Source: Candidatus Tectimicrobiota bacterium (GTDB taxonomy: Bacteria; UBA8248; JACPRG01). Taken from it: DNA of 5,434 nucleotides. Below are positions 1 through 5,434 of this stretch, in pieces. Made by a program: the position numbers and the translations under genes. How positions within the stretch are numbered: the first letter of the stretch is position 1; every line of letters begins with the position of its first letter. The notes under the pieces were generated by a model. The model saw nothing but the letters and a program-made list of their open reading frames with translations. It was not told the origin of the DNA and made no database searches. The DNA is taken from assembly GCA_016190025.1 (NCBI GenBank), contig JACPRG010000055.1:1-5434 (forward strand), read 5' to 3'.

Positions 1-471
1 GGGAAATGCATTCTCTGCCGCGAGCGGGTCGAGGCGGGAATGCCCACCGCCTGCGCCTCGGCCTGCCCGACGGGAGCCACGCTGTTCGGCGAACGGGAGG
101 CGCTGGTCCGCGAGGCGCGCTCCCGGATTCAATCGGGACCCGCCCTCTATGTGGACCACATCTTCGGACTGGAGGAGGTGGGGGGCACCTCGGTCCTGAT
201 GCTCTCCAGCGTCCCCTTCGAGGGGCTGGGCTTCAAGAACCCCCTGCCCAAACATCCTCTCCCGATGCTCACGTGGCAGGCCCTGTCCAAGATCCCAGAC
301 CTCGTTCTGATGGCGGGTGTCCTCCTCTACGGCATCCACTGGATCACCGCGCGCCGGGAGTACGTGCGGGCCGTCGCCGCGCGAGAGGTCTCGCCCGGCC
401 CGGCGGCCGCCCTGTCCGGGTGGCTCCGCTCCGTGTGGCGCCGGCTCAGCGGAAGGGTGGAGCGGCCATGA
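1..471 (+). CDS. HybA/FdnH-like [4Fe-4S] electron-transfer subunit, C-terminal part (5' truncated)
   Basis: The reading frame is open from base 1, so the N-terminus lies outside the window; 156 residues remain. The first visible residues hold a ferredoxin cluster-binding motif, CxxC-x11-CxxxCP (Cys 3, 6, 18 and 22 of the fragment), followed by PTGA, typical of HybA, FdnH and NrfC-type subunits. After a region of about 75 residues there is one hydrophobic segment at about residues 100-117, followed by a basic tail. This matches the C-terminal membrane anchor of HybA and FdnH. Such subunits pass electrons from an extracytoplasmic catalytic subunit through several [4Fe-4S] clusters to a membrane quinone-reactive partner. 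The stop codon overlaps the start of the HybB-like gene (ATGA), so the two are probably translationally coupled and form one complex. The sequence does not show whether the catalytic partner is a hydrogenase encoded upstream or the FdnG-like protein downstream. An internal ATG at 40 is not the true start, because the cluster motif begins before it. Confidence 0.9.
   Translation, partial: GKCILCRERVEAGMPTACASACPTGATLFGEREALVREARSRIQSGPALYVDHIFGLEEVGGTSVLMLSSVPFEGLGFKNPLPKHPLPMLTWQALSKIPDLVLMAGVLLYGIHWITARREYVRAVAAREVSPGPAAALSGWLRSVWRRLSGRVERP
456..462 (+). promoter_or_regulatory. Ribosome binding site for the hybB-like gene
   Basis: GGTGGAG lies 5 bases before the ATG at 468, inside the end of the iron-sulfur subunit gene. 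It supports the 468 start over the longer open frame and fits coupled translation through the ATGA overlap. Confidence 0.55.
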
Positions 472-1649
472 ACCACACGGCAACGCTCGGCGTCCGCCTG
501 AGCCGCGTCGGATTCTGGCAGGCCGTGTTCGGCCTGTTGCTGCTGGGGATGGGCGGGGTCACGGTGGTGCGCTACATGCGAGGGCTGGGGGCCACCACCA
601 ACCTGAGCGACGCCTTCCCCTGGGGGCTATGGATCGGGTTCGACGTTCTCTGTGGCGTCGGCCTGGCGGCGGGCGCCTTCACCCTGACGGCGGTCGTCCA
701 CCTCTTCAACCTCCGACGATTCGAGCCGATCGTCCGCCCGGCGGTGCTGACGGCCTTCCTCGGCTACCTCCTGGTGATTGCCGGGCTGCTGTTCGACCTG
801 GGCCAGCCCTGGCGGATCTGGCACGCCCTGGTCTTCTGGAACCCGCGGTCGGTGATGTTCGAGGTGGCCTGGTGTGTGATGCTCTACACGGCGGTCCTGG
901 CCTTGGAGTGCCTGCCGGTGGTGTTCGAGAGGTTCCGGCTGGAGCGCCCGCGGCGCCTCTTCCGGCTCCTGACCACCCCGCTCGTGATCGCGGGGGTCAT
1001 CCTCTCGACCTTGCACCAGTCCTCGCTCGGCTCCCTCTACCTGATCGTCCCGTTGAAGCTCCACCCGCTCTGGTACACCCCGCTCCTACCGTTCCTCTTC
1101 TTCATCTCCGCCGTCGGGGCAGGGATCGGGATGGTGATACTCGAATCCTACCTGAGCCAGCGGGCCTTCGGACGGCACCTCGAGATGGAGCTGCTGGAGC
1201 CGCTGGCTCGGGTCATGGTGGTGGTCCTGGGCGTCTACGGCCTGCTCAGGATTCAGGTGCTGCTAAGGAACGGCGGCATCGCGGAGCTGCGACACCCGGG
1301 GTACGAGGGCTGGATGTTCGCGCTGGAGCTGGGACTCGGGACGGTCCTGCCGGTCCTGTTGCTGGCCTTCGCGCGCGTGCGGACCAGCCCGGGGGGCCTG
1401 GTGACCGGGGCCTTTCTGGTGGTGCTCGGTTTTGTCATGAACCGACTGAACGTCAGCGTGACCGGCATGGAGGCGGCAGCGGGGGTGCGGTACGTGCCCT
1501 CCGGGATGGAGATCCTGGTCTCCCTGGGCCTGGTGGGCCTGGGCTTCGCCGCCTTCAGCTTGGCGGTCCGCTACCTCCCCATCTTCCCGAAGAAGCGCCT
1601 CCGGCCGGGCGCGCGGGGGGAGGACCTGCTGGGGCCGGTCGAGGACTGA
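468..1649 (+). CDS. hybB: HybB/NrfD-type integral membrane quinone oxidoreductase subunit
   Basis: This 393-residue protein is about the length of E. coli HybB. It has roughly ten hydrophobic segments, near residues 17-34, 54-80, 92-110, 130-152, 167-182, 203-225, 247-266, 283-301, 310-324 and 348-370. Family-like signatures include PWGLWIGFD (51-59), a buried THLxQSSLGS-like stretch (HQSSLG at 183-188) and NRLNVSVTG (325-333). The NrfD/HybB family carries no heme and exchanges electrons and protons between the partner iron-sulfur subunit and the quinone pool. The start at 468 is chosen because it overlaps the upstream stop as ATGA, has GGTGGAG about 5 bases before it, and gives the expected family N-terminus. 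The frame is open further upstream, but that stretch overlaps the iron-sulfur gene and has low-complexity, non-homologous composition. The symbol is given by family resemblance; the complex could serve formate oxidation rather than hydrogen. Confidence 0.92.
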   Translation: MNHTATLGVRLSRVGFWQAVFGLLLLGMGGVTVVRYMRGLGATTNLSDAFPWGLWIGFDVLCGVGLAAGAFTLTAVVHLFNLRRFEPIVRPAVLTAFLGYLLVIAGLLFDLGQPWRIWHALVFWNPRSVMFEVAWCVMLYTAVLALECLPVVFERFRLERPRRLFRLLTTPLVIAGVILSTLHQSSLGSLYLIVPLKLHPLWYTPLLPFLFFISAVGAGIGMVILESYLSQRAFGRHLEMELLEPLARVMVVVLGVYGLLRIQVLLRNGGIAELRHPGYEGWMFALELGLGTVLPVLLLAFARVRTSPGGLVTGAFLVVLGFVMNRLNVSVTGMEAAAGVRYVPSGMEILVSLGLVGLGFAAFSLAVRYLPIFPKKRLRPGARGEDLLGPVED

Positions 1650-1662
1650 CGGGACGGTACCG

Positions 1663-3528
1663 ATGCTCACGCGGATCGGGACGCAGGTGATCCTTGGAGT
1701 TGCGCTCGTGACGGCCGTCACCATCGGCGTTGTGGCCGTCCTGATCATCCGGGCGCACGAGGCTGACCTCATTGCGGCCCTGAGCCGCAGCGCGGACCAG
1801 TTGAGCGAAACGGTCAAGAGCAGCACCTATTACGACATGCTGGAGAACCGGCGGGACAGCCTTCACCGGGTGATCGAGACGATCGGACGCCAGGAGGGGA
1901 TCGAAAAGGTCCGCATCTTCAATAAGGACGGAGAGATCATGTTCTCTTCCGCCCCGGCGGAGATCGGGCGGTCCCTGGATAAGCGGGCCGAGGCCTGCTA
2001 CGCCTGCCACGCGGTGGACCGCGCGCTGGAGAAGCCGCCGATCCCGGAGCGCATCCGGATATTCCATGGCCCCAACGGGACGCGGGTGTTGGGGATCGTC
2101 AACCCGATCCAGAACCAGCCGAGCTGCTGGTCAGCGGCCTGCCATGCCCACACTGCGAAGCAGACCGTCCTGGGCGTGCTGGACGTGACCGTATCCGTCG
2201 CCGAGGTGGACCGGCAGATCGCCGCCAGCAAATGGCAGATCCTGGGTCTCGCTGCGGCCGCCATCGCCGCCGGCAGCCTGCTCCTCTGGTGGTTGAACCG
2301 GCGGCTGATCCTTCGGCCGGTGGAGGCGCTTGCGGCCGGGACGCGGCGGGTGGCGGAGGGCGACCTGACCGCTTCCATCCCAGTGAGCGCGACCAACGAA
2401 CTCGGGGATCTGGCCCGCGCGTTCAACGAGATGACGCGCCGTCTGACGGAGACACAGCGCCAGCTCACCCAGGCAGACAAGCTGGCGTCAGTGGGGCGCC
2501 TGGCGGCTGGGGTGGCGCACGAGATCAACAACCCGCTGACCGGGGTCCTGACCTACGCCTCGTTGCTGCTGAAGCGGGCCGGGGGGAACGGGGAACTCAA
2601 GGAGGATCTGGAGGTCATCGTCCGGGAGACGAAGCGCTGCCGGGACATCGTGAAGGGGCTGCTGGACTTCGCCCGGGCGACGCCGCCGAAGAGCCAGCCG
2701 ACCGACCTGAATGAGGTGGCGCGCCGCGCCGTGGCCGTAGTGATGAACCAACTCGCGCTCAACCGCGTGGCCCTCACGCTTGATCTGGCGCCGGACCTGC
2801 CCCAGGTGACGGCCGACCCCAACCAGATGCAGCAGGTCGTGGTGAATCTGCTGGTGAACGCCGCGGACGCCATCGGCGAGGAGGGAGGCGCGATCACGGT
2901 CAGCACCCACACCGCATCCGTCCCCCCGTGGGGCACGACGCCGATCCGCAAGGCGACGTGCCCGACAGGCTGTGACCTCCTGGACCCCTCGGTGAAGATC
3001 GGCGGCATGCCGGCCATCCGCGTCAGCCGGAGCTGGGACGGCCAGATCGCCACGGTCCACCTGGATCCGGTGTATGGCCGCTTCAATCACCTGGCCAGCC
3101 AGCCCTCGCCGGATGGACAGATCTCCGTGTTCGCCTGTCCGCGGTGCCGGGAGGTGCTCACGCTGCCCGGGGGATTGTGCCCCCGCTGCGAGGCCCCGAC
3201 CTTCGGCGTGCGCGCGCCCGAGGCGGGCGTCGTCGAGTTCTGCAGCCGGACCGGCTGCCACTGGGCCCGGTGGGAGGTGGTGGTGGGAAAGGGACCGCGC
3301 CCCTGCGTGGAACTCACCATCAGGGATACGGGCGTCGGAATCCCCCCCGAGGATCTTGGCCGCATCTTCGAGCCGTTTTTCAGCACGAAAGAAACCCGGG
3401 GCGCCGGGCTGGGCCTGGCCGTGACATGGGGCATCCTCGAGGCGCACGGGGGGGCGATCGACGTGGTGAGTGAGGTGGGCGAGGGCAGCCGATTCACCAT
3501 CCGCCTCCCGCTGAAGCCGGCCGCCTGA
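1663..3528 (+). CDS. Membrane sensor histidine kinase with extracytoplasmic c-type heme motifs and a Cys-rich insert in the ATPase domain
   Basis: This 621-residue protein has TM1 at about 9-29 and an extracytoplasmic sensor domain at about 30-190. The sensor contains a CxxCH motif (112-116) and a CX4CH motif (155-161). TM2 is at about 191-211, HAMP at about 212-264, and a HisKA domain follows with phospho-acceptor His286 in AHEINNPL. The HATPase domain has its N box at about 391-404 (Asn395, Asn399), G1 box DTGVGIP (555-561), F box FEPFFSTK (569-576) and G2 box GAGLGLAV (580-587). The kinase core looks intact. About 130 residues separate the N box and G1 box beyond the usual spacing; this insert carries CPTGC, two CPRC knuckles and CSRTGCH. 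By family knowledge it autophosphorylates on His and passes phosphate to receiver domains; the two receiver proteins downstream are the obvious partners. The heme motifs suggest redox or ligand sensing outside the membrane (inference). The gap to the upstream gene is 13 bases with no clear Shine-Dalgarno; the ATG is chosen because it directly precedes TM1. Confidence 0.93.
   Translation: MLTRIGTQVILGVALVTAVTIGVVAVLIIRAHEADLIAALSRSADQLSETVKSSTYYDMLENRRDSLHRVIETIGRQEGIEKVRIFNKDGEIMFSSAPAEIGRSLDKRAEACYACHAVDRALEKPPIPERIRIFHGPNGTRVLGIVNPIQNQPSCWSAACHAHTAKQTVLGVLDVTVSVAEVDRQIAASKWQILGLAAAAIAAGSLLLWWLNRRLILRPVEALAAGTRRVAEGDLTASIPVSATNELGDLARAFNEMTRRLTETQRQLTQADKLASVGRLAAGVAHEINNPLTGVLTYASLLLKRAGGNGELKEDLEVIVRETKRCRDIVKGLLDFARATPPKSQPTDLNEVARRAVAVVMNQLALNRVALTLDLAPDLPQVTADPNQMQQVVVNLLVNAADAIGEEGGAITVSTHTASVPPWGTTPIRKATCPTGCDLLDPSVKIGGMPAIRVSRSWDGQIATVHLDPVYGRFNHLASQPSPDGQISVFACPRCREVLTLPGGLCPRCEAPTFGVRAPEAGVVEFCSRTGCHWARWEVVVGKGPRPCVELTIRDTGVGIPPEDLGRIFEPFFSTKETRGAGLGLAVTWGILEAHGGAIDVVSEVGEGSRFTIRLPLKPAA
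1996..2145 (+). other. Putative c-type heme attachment region of the sensor domain (CxxCH and CX4CH)
   Basis: The codons cover residues 112-161 of the kinase. CYACH is a canonical CxxCH heme c site; CWSAACH is CX4CH, a spacing known from cytochrome c3-type proteins. Both lie between TM1 and TM2, on the side where cytochrome c maturation works. Between them is a stretch of about 38 residues with His135; this His, His163 and others could be distal ligands. Heme binding is inferred from the motifs alone. The second motif could instead bind no heme or form a disulfide. Confidence 0.7.
2911..3309 (+). other. Cys-rich zinc-ribbon-like insert within the kinase HATPase domain
   Basis: The insert covers about residues 417-549 of the kinase, between the strand after the N box and the strand leading into the G1 box. 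It holds eight cysteines in paired arrangement: C433xxxC437, C492xxC495, C506xxC509 and C527x4C532, the last followed by His533. The middle pairs, each followed or preceded by Pro-Arg, look like the two knuckles of a zinc ribbon or rubredoxin-like fold. The outer pairs could form a second site. Between the first and second pairs is an HLDPVYGRFNH stretch with aromatic and His residues. Boundaries are approximate. Metal binding is inferred, and the metal (Zn or Fe) cannot be told from sequence. Confidence 0.75.
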
Positions 3529-3548
3529 GACGCATTGGGGCTGGGGTC

Positions 3549-3947
3549 ATGACGGAGTCGTGGGACGTCCTCGTGATCGATGACGAGCCGGTGGTGCGCG
3601 ATGCCGTGGACCGGGTCCTCGCCGAGGATGGCCTGCGCGTGGCAAAGGCGGCCAACGGCGCGGAGGCGCTGAGCCACCCCGCCCTCGCCACCTGCCGGTT
3701 GGTGATCCTGGACCTGATGCTCCCCGATCGCTCGGGCACCGAGGTGCTGCGCGCGTTGCAGGCGGCCAGGCCTCGCCTGCCTGTGGTGGTCATCACCGGC
3801 TATGCGATCCACGAGAAGACGAGCCGGGCGATGGACGCGGGAGCGGTGGATTACCTGCCCAAGCCGTTCGAGGCCTCGGAGCTATTGACCGTCGTGCGTC
3901 GGGCCCTGGAGGCTCGGGCCGGCAGCGCGGAGGAGAACCGATCATGA
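3549..3947 (+). CDS. Stand-alone response regulator receiver protein
   Basis: This 132-residue protein consists of one REC domain (about residues 6-122) and a short tail. All key residues are present: acidic pair Asp11/Asp12, phospho-acceptor Asp55, Thr83 in VVITGYA, and Lys105 in the LPKPF motif. There is no DNA-binding, enzymatic or RNA-binding output domain, so it resembles CheY/Spo0F-type receivers that act by protein contact or as phosphorelay intermediates. It begins 20 bases after the kinase stop and its own stop overlaps the next start as ATGA. Kinase His286 is therefore its likely phosphate donor (inference from context). The leader between the two genes is G-rich but lacks a strong Shine-Dalgarno. 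Its job may be to relay or drain phosphate between the kinase and the membrane-anchored receiver next door. Confidence 0.92.
   Translation: MTESWDVLVIDDEPVVRDAVDRVLAEDGLRVAKAANGAEALSHPALATCRLVILDLMLPDRSGTEVLRALQAARPRLPVVVITGYAIHEKTSRAMDAGAVDYLPKPFEASELLTVVRRALEARAGSAEENRS
3929..3935 (+). promoter_or_regulatory. Ribosome binding site for the receiver/GcvH-like fusion gene
   Basis: GGAGGAG lies 8 bases before the ATG at 3944, within the last codons of the receiver gene. It supports the 3944 start, which includes the N-terminal membrane segment, over a later start at the receiver domain. Confidence 0.75.
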
Positions 3948-5119
3948 CGGCGCTCATCGTTGTCCTAATGATCGTGGCGTTCGTGATCATCGATGTGCTG
4001 GTTCGCATTACTACCCGGAGGATGGCCGAGGCCCGGGTCCGACGCGAGCGTGAAGCAGTGCTCCAGACGGCGCTTCGCCTGGACTTCACCCACGAGGCGC
4101 CGAGCCTCAAACGGGCGGAGGTGCCGAACGCCGTGGCCCGGATCCTGGCCGTGGACGACGAGCCGGTGGTCCTGGACTCCTTCCGCAAGATCCTGGTCTT
4201 GGCCGGATTCAGCGTGGACACGGTGGAGAGCGGCCCGGAGGCGCTGGGCCTGGTCCAGCGGCACGACTACGACTTCGTGTTCACCGATCTCAAGATGCCG
4301 GGGATGGACGGAGTGGAGGTGGTCAAGGCGGTCAGGCACCTTCGGCCGGACGTGGATATGGCCGTTATCACCGGGTACGCCACCATCGAGTCGGCGGTCG
4401 AGACGATGAAGCACGGGGCGGTGGATTACGTGCAGAAGCCCTTCACCGAGGATGAGCTGTCGGCGTTCGCGCGCCGGCTGCTGATCAAGCGGCAGGCCCG
4501 GCTGGAGGCCCAGCGCCGTCCCGAGGTGCGGGTGGTGGCGCCGGCCATGGCCGAGACGGCGCGGGGCCACGAGTTCTGTGTGTCCGGAGGCGCCTTCCTG
4601 TCGGCCGGGCACAGCTGGGCCCGGATCGAGCCGGGGGGCCAAGTGCGCGTGGGCGTGGACGATTTTGCGCGCAAGGCGCTCGGCCCCATCGAGGGGGTAG
4701 AGCTGCCCAAGGTGGGGGAGACGCTGGATCGCGGGGCGCCCCTCTTCGCGGTAAAGCGCGCCAGTCAGACGGCGCACTTTACGACTCCGGTGGCCGGCCG
4801 GGTGGTCGAGATCAACGCCGCCTTGGTCCAGATGCCGGCCCGGGTCAGCCAGAGCCCCTACGACCGGGGCTGGGTGTGTTTCATTGCGCCCGCCGACCTG
4901 GCCGGAGATCTACCGACCCTCCGGATCGGGCAACCCGTAGTCGCCTGGTACCAGGAAGAGATCGCGCGGCTACGCGCATCCGTCGGCCCAACCGCTGGGG
5001 GGATCCCGCTCGACGACTGGGCGGTCTTCGAACGGGACTTCCTGTGGCCCGATCCGGGATACTCGGGACCCGTGGATCGGAGAGAGGAGGGGAAACACCA
5101 TGGCCTTGTCTCGTCGTGA
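3944..5119 (+). CDS. Membrane-anchored response regulator receiver fused to a GcvH-like domain without lipoyl lysine
   Basis: This 391-residue protein starts with a hydrophobic segment (about 3-20) followed by a strongly basic, probably helical linker (21-60). That predicts an N-terminal membrane anchor with a cytoplasmic body. A complete NtrC-like REC domain follows (about 66-180): Asp71/Asp72, phospho-acceptor Asp115, Thr143 and Lys165. After a linker, residues 208-343 resemble glycine cleavage H protein: GHSWARIE, VGVDDFARKALG, VELPKVGETL, TPVAGRVVEIN and SPYDRGW follow the GcvH order and spacing. The position of the lipoyl lysine is Ser274 when the two conserved blocks are aligned without gaps, so it probably carries no lipoate. 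The C-terminal tail of about 48 residues is unrecognised and ends with an acidic/aromatic patch. There is no helix-turn-helix or sigma-54 AAA+ domain. ATGA overlap with the receiver gene and a 20-base overlap with the fdnG-like gene point to tight co-expression. Domain calls are firm for REC, good for the GcvH-like fold; the function is unknown. Confidence 0.9.
   Translation: MTALIVVLMIVAFVIIDVLVRITTRRMAEARVRREREAVLQTALRLDFTHEAPSLKRAEVPNAVARILAVDDEPVVLDSFRKILVLAGFSVDTVESGPEALGLVQRHDYDFVFTDLKMPGMDGVEVVKAVRHLRPDVDMAVITGYATIESAVETMKHGAVDYVQKPFTEDELSAFARRLLIKRQARLEAQRRPEVRVVAPAMAETARGHEFCVSGGAFLSAGHSWARIEPGGQVRVGVDDFARKALGPIEGVELPKVGETLDRGAPLFAVKRASQTAHFTTPVAGRVVEINAALVQMPARVSQSPYDRGWVCFIAPADLAGDLPTLRIGQPVVAWYQEEIARLRASVGPTAGGIPLDDWAVFERDFLWPDPGYSGPVDRREEGKHHGLVSS
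4565..4972 (+). other. GcvH-like (lipoyl/biotinyl-type fold) domain lacking the attachment lysine
   Basis: The codons cover residues 208-343 of the fusion protein. Compared with E. coli GcvH as recalled, the distance from the LPxVG block to the Pro of the PVxG block is the same (24 residues). Without gaps, the lipoyl lysine position is occupied by Ser274; the nearest lysine, Lys271, sits three residues earlier. The later PYxxGW motif is conserved as PYDRGW. The domain probably serves as a structural or binding module, not a lipoyl carrier (inference). Confidence 0.75.
5085..5090 (+). promoter_or_regulatory. Strong ribosome binding site for the fdnG-like gene
   Basis: A perfect AGGAGG lies 9 bases before the ATG at 5100, inside the last codons of the receiver/GcvH-like gene. 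It is the best Shine-Dalgarno in the window and fixes the start used here. It also suggests the catalytic subunit is translated more strongly than the regulators before it. Confidence 0.85.
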
Positions 5120-5434
5120 ATTCCTCCAGACGTCCGGTGCGGCCACGGCCACCGGCGCCCTGGCGGGGCTGGGGCTGGACCTCGCCCCGCTCACGGCCGA
5201 GGCGCAGGTTCTCCGGACCCGCGAGGCCAAGGAGGTCCCGACGGTCTGCATGTATTGCGCCGTGGGCTGCGGCCAACTGGCCGCGGTCGAAAACGGCCGG
5301 ATCATCAACATCGAGGGCGATCCGGACAACCCGATCAACCAGGGGGCCCTGTGCTGCAAGGGCAACGCCGACATCCAGATCCTGTATAACGAGCGCCGCC
5401 CCATGCGGGTCTGGTACCGCCGGCCCAACGGCGA
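5100..5434 (+). CDS. fdnG: FdnG-type formate dehydrogenase molybdopterin alpha subunit, N-terminal part (3' truncated)
   Basis: The frame runs open to the window end, giving 111 residues of a protein that is usually about 800-1000 residues long. Residues 4-10, SRREFLQ, are a twin-arginine export motif followed by a hydrophobic Ala/Gly/Leu stretch. AEA at 33-35 fits an AxA signal peptidase site. A molybdopterin oxidoreductase Fe4S4 domain then begins, with ligands Cys50, Cys53, Cys57 and Cys85 (CxxC-x3-C-x27-C) and Lys87, typical of the FdnG/FdhA group. The DPDNPINQGALC stretch is also characteristic. The protein would be exported folded with its Mo/W-bispyranopterin cofactor and oxidise formate to CO2 outside the cytoplasm. 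The active-site Cys or selenocysteine lies beyond the window, so a different substrate in the same superfamily cannot be excluded. It overlaps the upstream gene by 20 bases in another frame and has a strong AGGAGG. Confidence 0.9.
   Translation, partial: MALSRREFLQTSGAATATGALAGLGLDLAPLTAEAQVLRTREAKEVPTVCMYCAVGCGQLAAVENGRIINIEGDPDNPINQGALCCKGNADIQILYNERRPMRVWYRRPNG

Follow-up and report, generated by a model that had tools for sequence, protein, structure and literature searches.

The 5,434-nucleotide stretch of Candidatus Tectimicrobiota DNA analysed here (the window; contig JACPRG010000055.1) encodes a sensor histidine kinase whose ATP-binding domain is interrupted, between the N box and the G1 box, by a 133-residue insert with eight paired cysteines. 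The kinase itself is of a known type, and the inserted domain is without a name above cut-off in the Pfam and NCBIfam libraries scanned. Copies of the domain were also found as free small proteins and as tails of NuoE-like proteins, and all kinase copies formed a single clade. An original prediction, made from the sequence letters, had described the open reading frame (1663..3528), Asn395, Asn399, Asp555 and an insert at residues 417-549 with four cysteine pairs, all of which were found as described. The features of the insert, in order along the gene, are:

2911..3309, + strand: inserted eight-cysteine domain, residues 417-549 (alignments, N-box-to-G1 lengths, fold prediction)
2959..2973, + strand: cysteine pair 1, C433xxxC437 (alignment; His replaces C437 in 13 related kinases)
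3061..3081, + strand: LDPVYGR motif, residues 467-473 (alignments)
3136..3147, + strand: cysteine pair 2, C492xxC495 (alignment)
3178..3189, + strand: cysteine pair 3, C506xxC509 (alignment)
3241..3261, + strand: cysteine pair 4, C527x4C532, followed by H533, which is His in 74/93 rows (alignment)

Cysteine conservation and position of the insert

Nine cysteines lie within the 133 residues of the insert and five within the remaining 488 residues of the kinase. When the insert was shuffled with its own composition, four close cysteine pairs were reached in 48/20000 cases; among 133-residue pieces taken from the shuffled whole protein this number was 0/20000. With the insert as query, 92 of 194 candidate homologues were accepted at an E value of 0.001, giving 93 rows together with the query. 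All eight paired cysteines were invariant in 93/93, and the ninth, C548, was poorly kept (Cys in 12/93). Altogether 13 of the 133 positions were invariant in this set, namely the eight cysteines and Asp468, Pro469, Tyr471, Gly472 and Arg529, with Gly472 also kept in 76/76 rows of alignment A5. Pairwise identity of the insert region had a median of 52% and a minimum of 38%. This set was collected via words shared within the insert and therefore overstates the conservation at position 437: a profile search of genomes revealed His at this position in 13 kinases (L073, which equals L109, L181-L186 and L211-L216). Conservation of all eight cysteines among homologues thus held throughout the 93 rows and failed at position 437 in these 13 other kinases.

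The spacing between N box and G1 box was 155-160 residues in carriers of the insert versus mostly 27-35 residues in kinases that share the sensor and lack the insert, among which three exceptions had 46, 49 and 60 residues and some rows were unreadable by the pattern used. This agrees with the earlier statement that a few tens of residues are normal here. The claim of an evolved insertion instead of decay was likewise supported by the intact catalytic boxes and by the short insertless relatives.

The insert occupies the turn of a hairpin whose first strand follows the N box and whose second strand, residues 546-555 in the predicted model, runs up to the G1 box. Because it replaces the turn before that strand, the insert would join the sheet far from the G1 Asp, at the distal end and about eight extended-strand residues off, as judged from strand geometry. 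The metal site beside the ATP pocket that had been proposed is not supported in that form by this predicted arrangement.

Predicted fold and metal sites

When residues 409-553 were modelled alone with 75 relatives, the predicted local distance difference test score (pLDDT) was 96.7 and the predicted template modelling score (pTM) 0.87, and the model was nearly all beta. The insert is hence confidently predicted to be an independently folding domain. While the domain, its conservation and its confident fold prediction were computed directly, the identity of the metal and the pairing of its ligands we infer. In a size of about 125 residues the domain likely combines two metal sites with the conserved LDPVYG motif. 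One lineage (L101/L202) suggests that residues 433/437/492/495 make up one site and 506/509/527/532 the other; in addition, a weak alignment of residues 496-538 was obtained with topoisomerase I and with an RNA polymerase V subunit. Both observations favour this pairing over an alternative one, in which 492/495/506/509 would form one ribbon and 433/437/527/532 the other. Any bound metal is probably zinc. His437 in the 13 kinases suits structural zinc coordination more than a redox switch, and His is common at this position in the family (44/259 distinct sequences). The insert shows the pattern of the whole family, i.e. CxxxC, CxxxH or CxxC, then CxxC, CxxC and Cx4C, pairs 1 and 2 being separated by a stretch that contains a YG motif.

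Among the proteins scanned, no Pfam or NCBIfam model exceeded its cut-off on the insert; DZR, for instance, scored 12.3 bits against a cut-off of 27.3. For seven stand-alone or NuoE-fused copies, every listed zinc model stayed below cut-off and Pfam/NCBIfam named nothing for the domain. A PDB sequence search with the query insert gave no match, and one with an insert profile gave weak matches to zinc proteins (best E 0.0093). A third search with a mixed profile returned kinases only among the best 60 matches listed, because full kinases were within the profile. The claim that no named domain is known was thus supported within the libraries and proteins scanned, with no good PDB sequence match either. 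Among the titles and abstract openings listed in searches of the open-access literature, neither the insert nor the NuoE tail nor the receiver-GcvH fusion described below was mentioned.

Evolutionary history of the insert

A tree of domain copies was computed from 114 rows thinned from 257, with few columns and many forks left open. The 50 kinase copies formed a single clade (Shimodaira-Hasegawa-like approximate likelihood ratio test, SH-aLRT, 98), next to the stand-alone copies L066 and L067 (88), and 12 NuoE copies formed a clade of their own (98). This placement of all kinase copies together, next to free ones, points to one capture into the kinase, the source being a group of small stand-alone proteins.

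Trees of the kinases were computed without the insert columns. Three changes of insert state on a first tree (69 rows) were superseded once more carriers were added: with four further carriers (61 rows), five changes were obtained, four of them forced by well-supported branches, and 5-6 in bootstraps. As the outgroups are insertless and the domain copies have a single origin, this reads as one gain followed by some four losses, of which well-supported branches account for no fewer than three; repeated gain at this kinase position is formally conceivable. The single kinase clade and the repeated absence of the insert within it were computed directly, whereas the direction of capture and of loss we infer. 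Repeated loss with the operon intact suggests that the inserted arm modulates a kinase that is functional without it.

The domain outside kinases

The distribution of the domain was surveyed with a profile (A2) built from 28 inserts. Matches were obtained in 16/47 genomes from the phylum to which L001 belongs (Candidatus Eisenbacteria) and in 33/396 from that of L002 (Acidobacteria), both at E 1e-6. At E 1e-8, matches were found in 9/249 genomes of the phylum of L018 (Gemmatimonadetes), in 4/188 of the phylum of L005 (Myxococcota), with no kinase among them, and in 0/198 of the phylum of L004 (Nitrospirota). These counts are lower bounds, because mostly only some candidates were scored (10 per genome in Acidobacteria). 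Class-level searches at E 1e-20 gave 2/41, 2/38, 0/193 and, for the class of G151, 6/93.

The domain is not confined to kinases. Among the 24 loci obtained from the phyla of L001 and L002, it lies in a kinase in 5, is a small protein by itself in 11 and forms the tail of a NuoE-like protein in 8. In the Gemmatimonadetes it belongs to a kinase at 6 loci and to a NuoE tail at 3, and one further piece was masked. PF01257 was found in the one NuoE-tail protein scanned. Altogether C-terminal eight-cysteine tails were seen on the NuoE-like proteins of L070, L071, L076-L078, L080-L082, L187-L189 and L195. The free domain proteins came from the genome searches of the phyla of L001 and L002; a protein search with A2 (7/1457 candidates accepted) yielded kinase fragments and P0095, and no free protein. 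P0095, an odd join with a GreA-type start, lies on a 1680-base contig and is perhaps a misassembly. A search with 12 stand-alone proteins accepted 86/735 candidates, whose source names included 'hypothetical', tRNA-ligase names and 'predicted RNA-binding Zn-ribbon protein'. Precomputed Pfam labels were present on 9 of these 86, six of them being PF09334 (tRNA-synthetase) and two PF13240 or PF07191.

Gene contexts were taken from a rough open reading frame caller, which picked wrong frames in places. In L108 the domain gene follows KorA- and KorC-type genes and precedes SucC/SucD-like genes (the latter by eye), and in L116 NiFe hydrogenase genes lie about 2 kb off. In L114 the NuoE-tail gene is followed by a NuoF-like/pyridine-nucleotide oxidoreductase fusion, a 2Fe-2S protein and a glutamate-synthase-like protein, a neighbourhood that L115 resembles by BLAST cluster. 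The start of the domain gene overlaps a gene of iron-sulphur-type appearance (by eye) in L084, L085, L094 and L099, and the gene context of L104, L105, L107, L113 and L117 held no nameable redox neighbour. The domain is therefore associated with redox enzyme genes in some loci, an association and not a function.

Kinase architecture and predicted periplasmic sensor

The kinase is of the two-component HisKA plus HATPase_c type, with phospho-acceptor His, N, G1 and G2 boxes present and Pfam matches above cut-off (HAMP 58.9, HisKA 63.1 and HATPase_c, in two stretches, 81.1 bits). A transmembrane segment, a periplasmic Cache-like sensor, a second transmembrane segment, HAMP, HisKA and the split HATPase_c follow one another in this order:

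1753..2232, + strand: predicted periplasmic sensor, residues about 31-190 (Pfam, alignment, model)
1996-2010, + strand: CYACH (CxxCH), residues 112-116, heme c-type motif in the predicted sensor (alignment)
2125-2145, + strand: CWSAACH (Cx4CH; Cx4CHxH), residues 155-161, heme c-type motif in the predicted sensor (alignment)
2494..2682, + strand: HisKA, residues 278-340, phospho-acceptor His286 (Pfam)
2845..2859, + strand: N box Asn395-Asn399, ahead of the insert in the split catalytic domain (residue check)
3301..3516, + strand: downstream part of HATPase_c, residues 547-618, with G1 Asp555 and G2 box (Pfam)

In the 93 rows, C112 and C115 of the sensor were kept in 85 (8 gaps), and C155 and C160 in 87 (6 gaps). 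The sensor scored 18.4 bits with sCache_3_2, below the cut-off of 28.4, and PF11845 (sCache_heme) was absent from the Pfam matches of the kinase at E values up to 1, a range in which HMMER filters remove most matches above 0.1. A sensor profile matched 14/47 and 116/396 genomes of the phyla of L001 and L002, respectively, so that the sensor is commoner than the insert.

Possible roles of the insert

Our tentative preference, held at somewhat less than an even chance, is that the insert is a docking module with structural zinc which was captured into the kinase and ties it to a cytoplasmic redox partner. A single copying event would have brought the eight-cysteine domain from small free proteins into the catalytic domain, at the hairpin turn, where two zinc-ribbon-like sites, probably filled by zinc, would stabilise its fold. 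Its surface, including the LDPVYG and RxGC motifs, would be the working part that docks the partner. The kinase may then read its heme-type periplasmic sensor and also sense, via the arm, whether a cytoplasmic electron-transfer protein is present or in what state it is. It seems more doubtful that the protein is a dual-compartment redox kinase in the specific sense that the insert docks a low-potential carrier (a hydrogenase, a NuoE-type protein or a ferredoxin oxidoreductase) and tunes the ATPase, the domain being a general docking module of anaerobic redox enzymes. The redox or metal gate originally proposed, in which cysteine oxidation or metal loss would alter the fold and switch the activity of a kinase sensing on both sides of the membrane, we regard as unlikely. 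The invariance of the cysteines in the 93 rows, the redox enzymes around the operon and some domain relatives, and the heme-type motifs within the same kinase would all suit such a gate. However, His437 in 13 kinases leaves no essential disulfide through this position there and, together with CxxC/CxxxC register shifts, points to structural ligands; moreover, identical sites are present in non-kinase proteins, and the predicted attachment at the hairpin turn is distal to the G1 Asp.

Quite unlikely is a tolerated passenger, i.e. a folded domain that the hairpin turn accommodates although the kinase draws no benefit from it. In favour are some four losses, no fewer than three, that left the rest of the kinase and the operon in place; against it, kinases of three phyla have retained the domain with its metal ligands intact. 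We consider it about as unlikely that iron (rubredoxin-type or Fe-S) fills the sites and that the domain serves as an electron carrier both in the kinase and when fused to NuoE. Its attachment to NuoE-like 2Fe-2S proteins and neighbours using low-potential electrons would fit, yet the knuckles match zinc-ribbon models best, though below cut-off, and His437 is common in the family. The least probable of these readings is that the CheY-like protein encoded just downstream docks on the insert as a second response regulator. A CheY gene lies between the kinase and the receiver-GcvH gene in five carriers (the window, G001, G031, G040 and G207) and directly after the kinase in 0/29 insertless relatives read, these being L002 and 28 of the best-scoring loci of the sensor-profile search in its phylum. 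A strict link between insert and CheY was nevertheless rejected, since 12 carriers have no CheY gene adjoining the kinase: L181-L185 of the Gemmatimonadota, L211-L216 (class of G151) and L109 (632 bases visible), all with His437. L186, also a His437 carrier, is truncated and its CheY state unreadable. CheY accompanies carriers of the Cys437 type only, possibly through one event.

Relation to known systems

HisKA/HATPase_c kinases such as ZraS (PDB 9jfj) have the dimerisation and histidine phosphotransfer (DHp) domain and the catalytic domain in common with the present kinase; by fold, 9jfj ranked second after an integrative WalK model, and first for the profile containing full kinases. The present kinase differs by its insert, the insertless relatives compared having about 30 residues between N box and G1. 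CPxC knuckles are shared with zinc ribbons (DZR PF12773, DZR_2 PF18912, Zn_Ribbon_1 PF13240 and the topoisomerase I C4 ribbon), whereas scores below cut-off, about 125 residues, two likely sites and the LDPVYG motif set the insert apart. NuoE-like proteins (L070, L076, L078, L080 and others) have the same domain at the C terminus, as a tail on a 2Fe-2S thioredoxin-like subunit, and in the kinase it is an insertion within the ATPase.

Histidine kinases usually acquire inputs through sensor domains placed before the DHp helix. Here a whole folded domain has entered the catalytic core; several phyla have retained it, and it was apparently lost repeatedly. Owing to this repeated loss, natural kinases with and without the insert exist in the same type of operon, and such pairs allow a test of what an input acting right at the ATPase sheet does. 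The domain moreover connects a signalling protein with NuoE-type subunits and, in some loci, redox enzyme neighbourhoods; as one unnamed domain occurs in several settings, a function found in one would inform the others.

Cys326 (window 2638-2640), 40 residues past His286 in HisKA, was Cys in 93/93 rows. The RegB/PrrB redox kinases presumably have their redox Cys at the same spacing from the phospho-acceptor His; in the kinase here it is a side feature only, and we know of no such insert in RegB. For sCache_heme sensors (DUF3365/Tll0287), a short captured CXXCH module inside the Cache sensor of kinases and other receptors has been described (PMC12889525). Measured against that description, where the captured module lies in the sensor, the present kinase has two motifs in its sensor and a larger second capture in the catalytic domain.

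Gene cluster and the receiver-GcvH partner

The genes of the window are:

1..471, + strand: HmcB/HybA-like iron-sulphur subunit, truncated at the window start (open reading frame and profile match)
468..1649, + strand: NrfD/HmcC/HybB-like membrane subunit (profile match)
1663..3528, + strand: sensor histidine kinase, 621 residues (open reading frame and Pfam)
3549..3947, + strand: stand-alone CheY-like receiver protein, 132 residues (Pfam and relatives)
3944..5119, + strand: fusion of a receiver and a GcvH-like domain, 391 residues, with an N-terminal hydrophobic stretch as putative membrane anchor (Pfam and relatives)
5100..5434, + strand: start of a molybdopterin oxidoreductase with twin-arginine translocation (Tat) signal and 4Fe-4S domain, truncated at the window end (Pfam)

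Since the truncated oxidoreductase gene directly follows the receiver-GcvH gene, the cluster extends past the window. No Rfam family reached its gathering score anywhere in the window. The neighbours of the kinase, NrfD and iron-sulphur genes before it and receiver-GcvH after it, were kept in the carriers L001, L110, L111 and L112 and likewise in insertless L166-L173.

The receiver-GcvH fusion is the usual partner of the kinase (window, L001, L002, L110-L112, L166-L173 and L181-L185) and has an N-terminal hydrophobic stretch in all these loci except L181-L185. Pfam revealed no DNA-binding domain in the fusion of the window. Lipoylation of the GcvH part as a general trait was rejected, the aligned Lys being present in only 7/19 (window, L166, L167 and L170-L173; one other was unreadable). 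In L174 a separate GcvH-like stretch (3157-3627) lies upstream of the iron-sulphur, NrfD and kinase genes, which suggests that the fusion with the receiver arose later.
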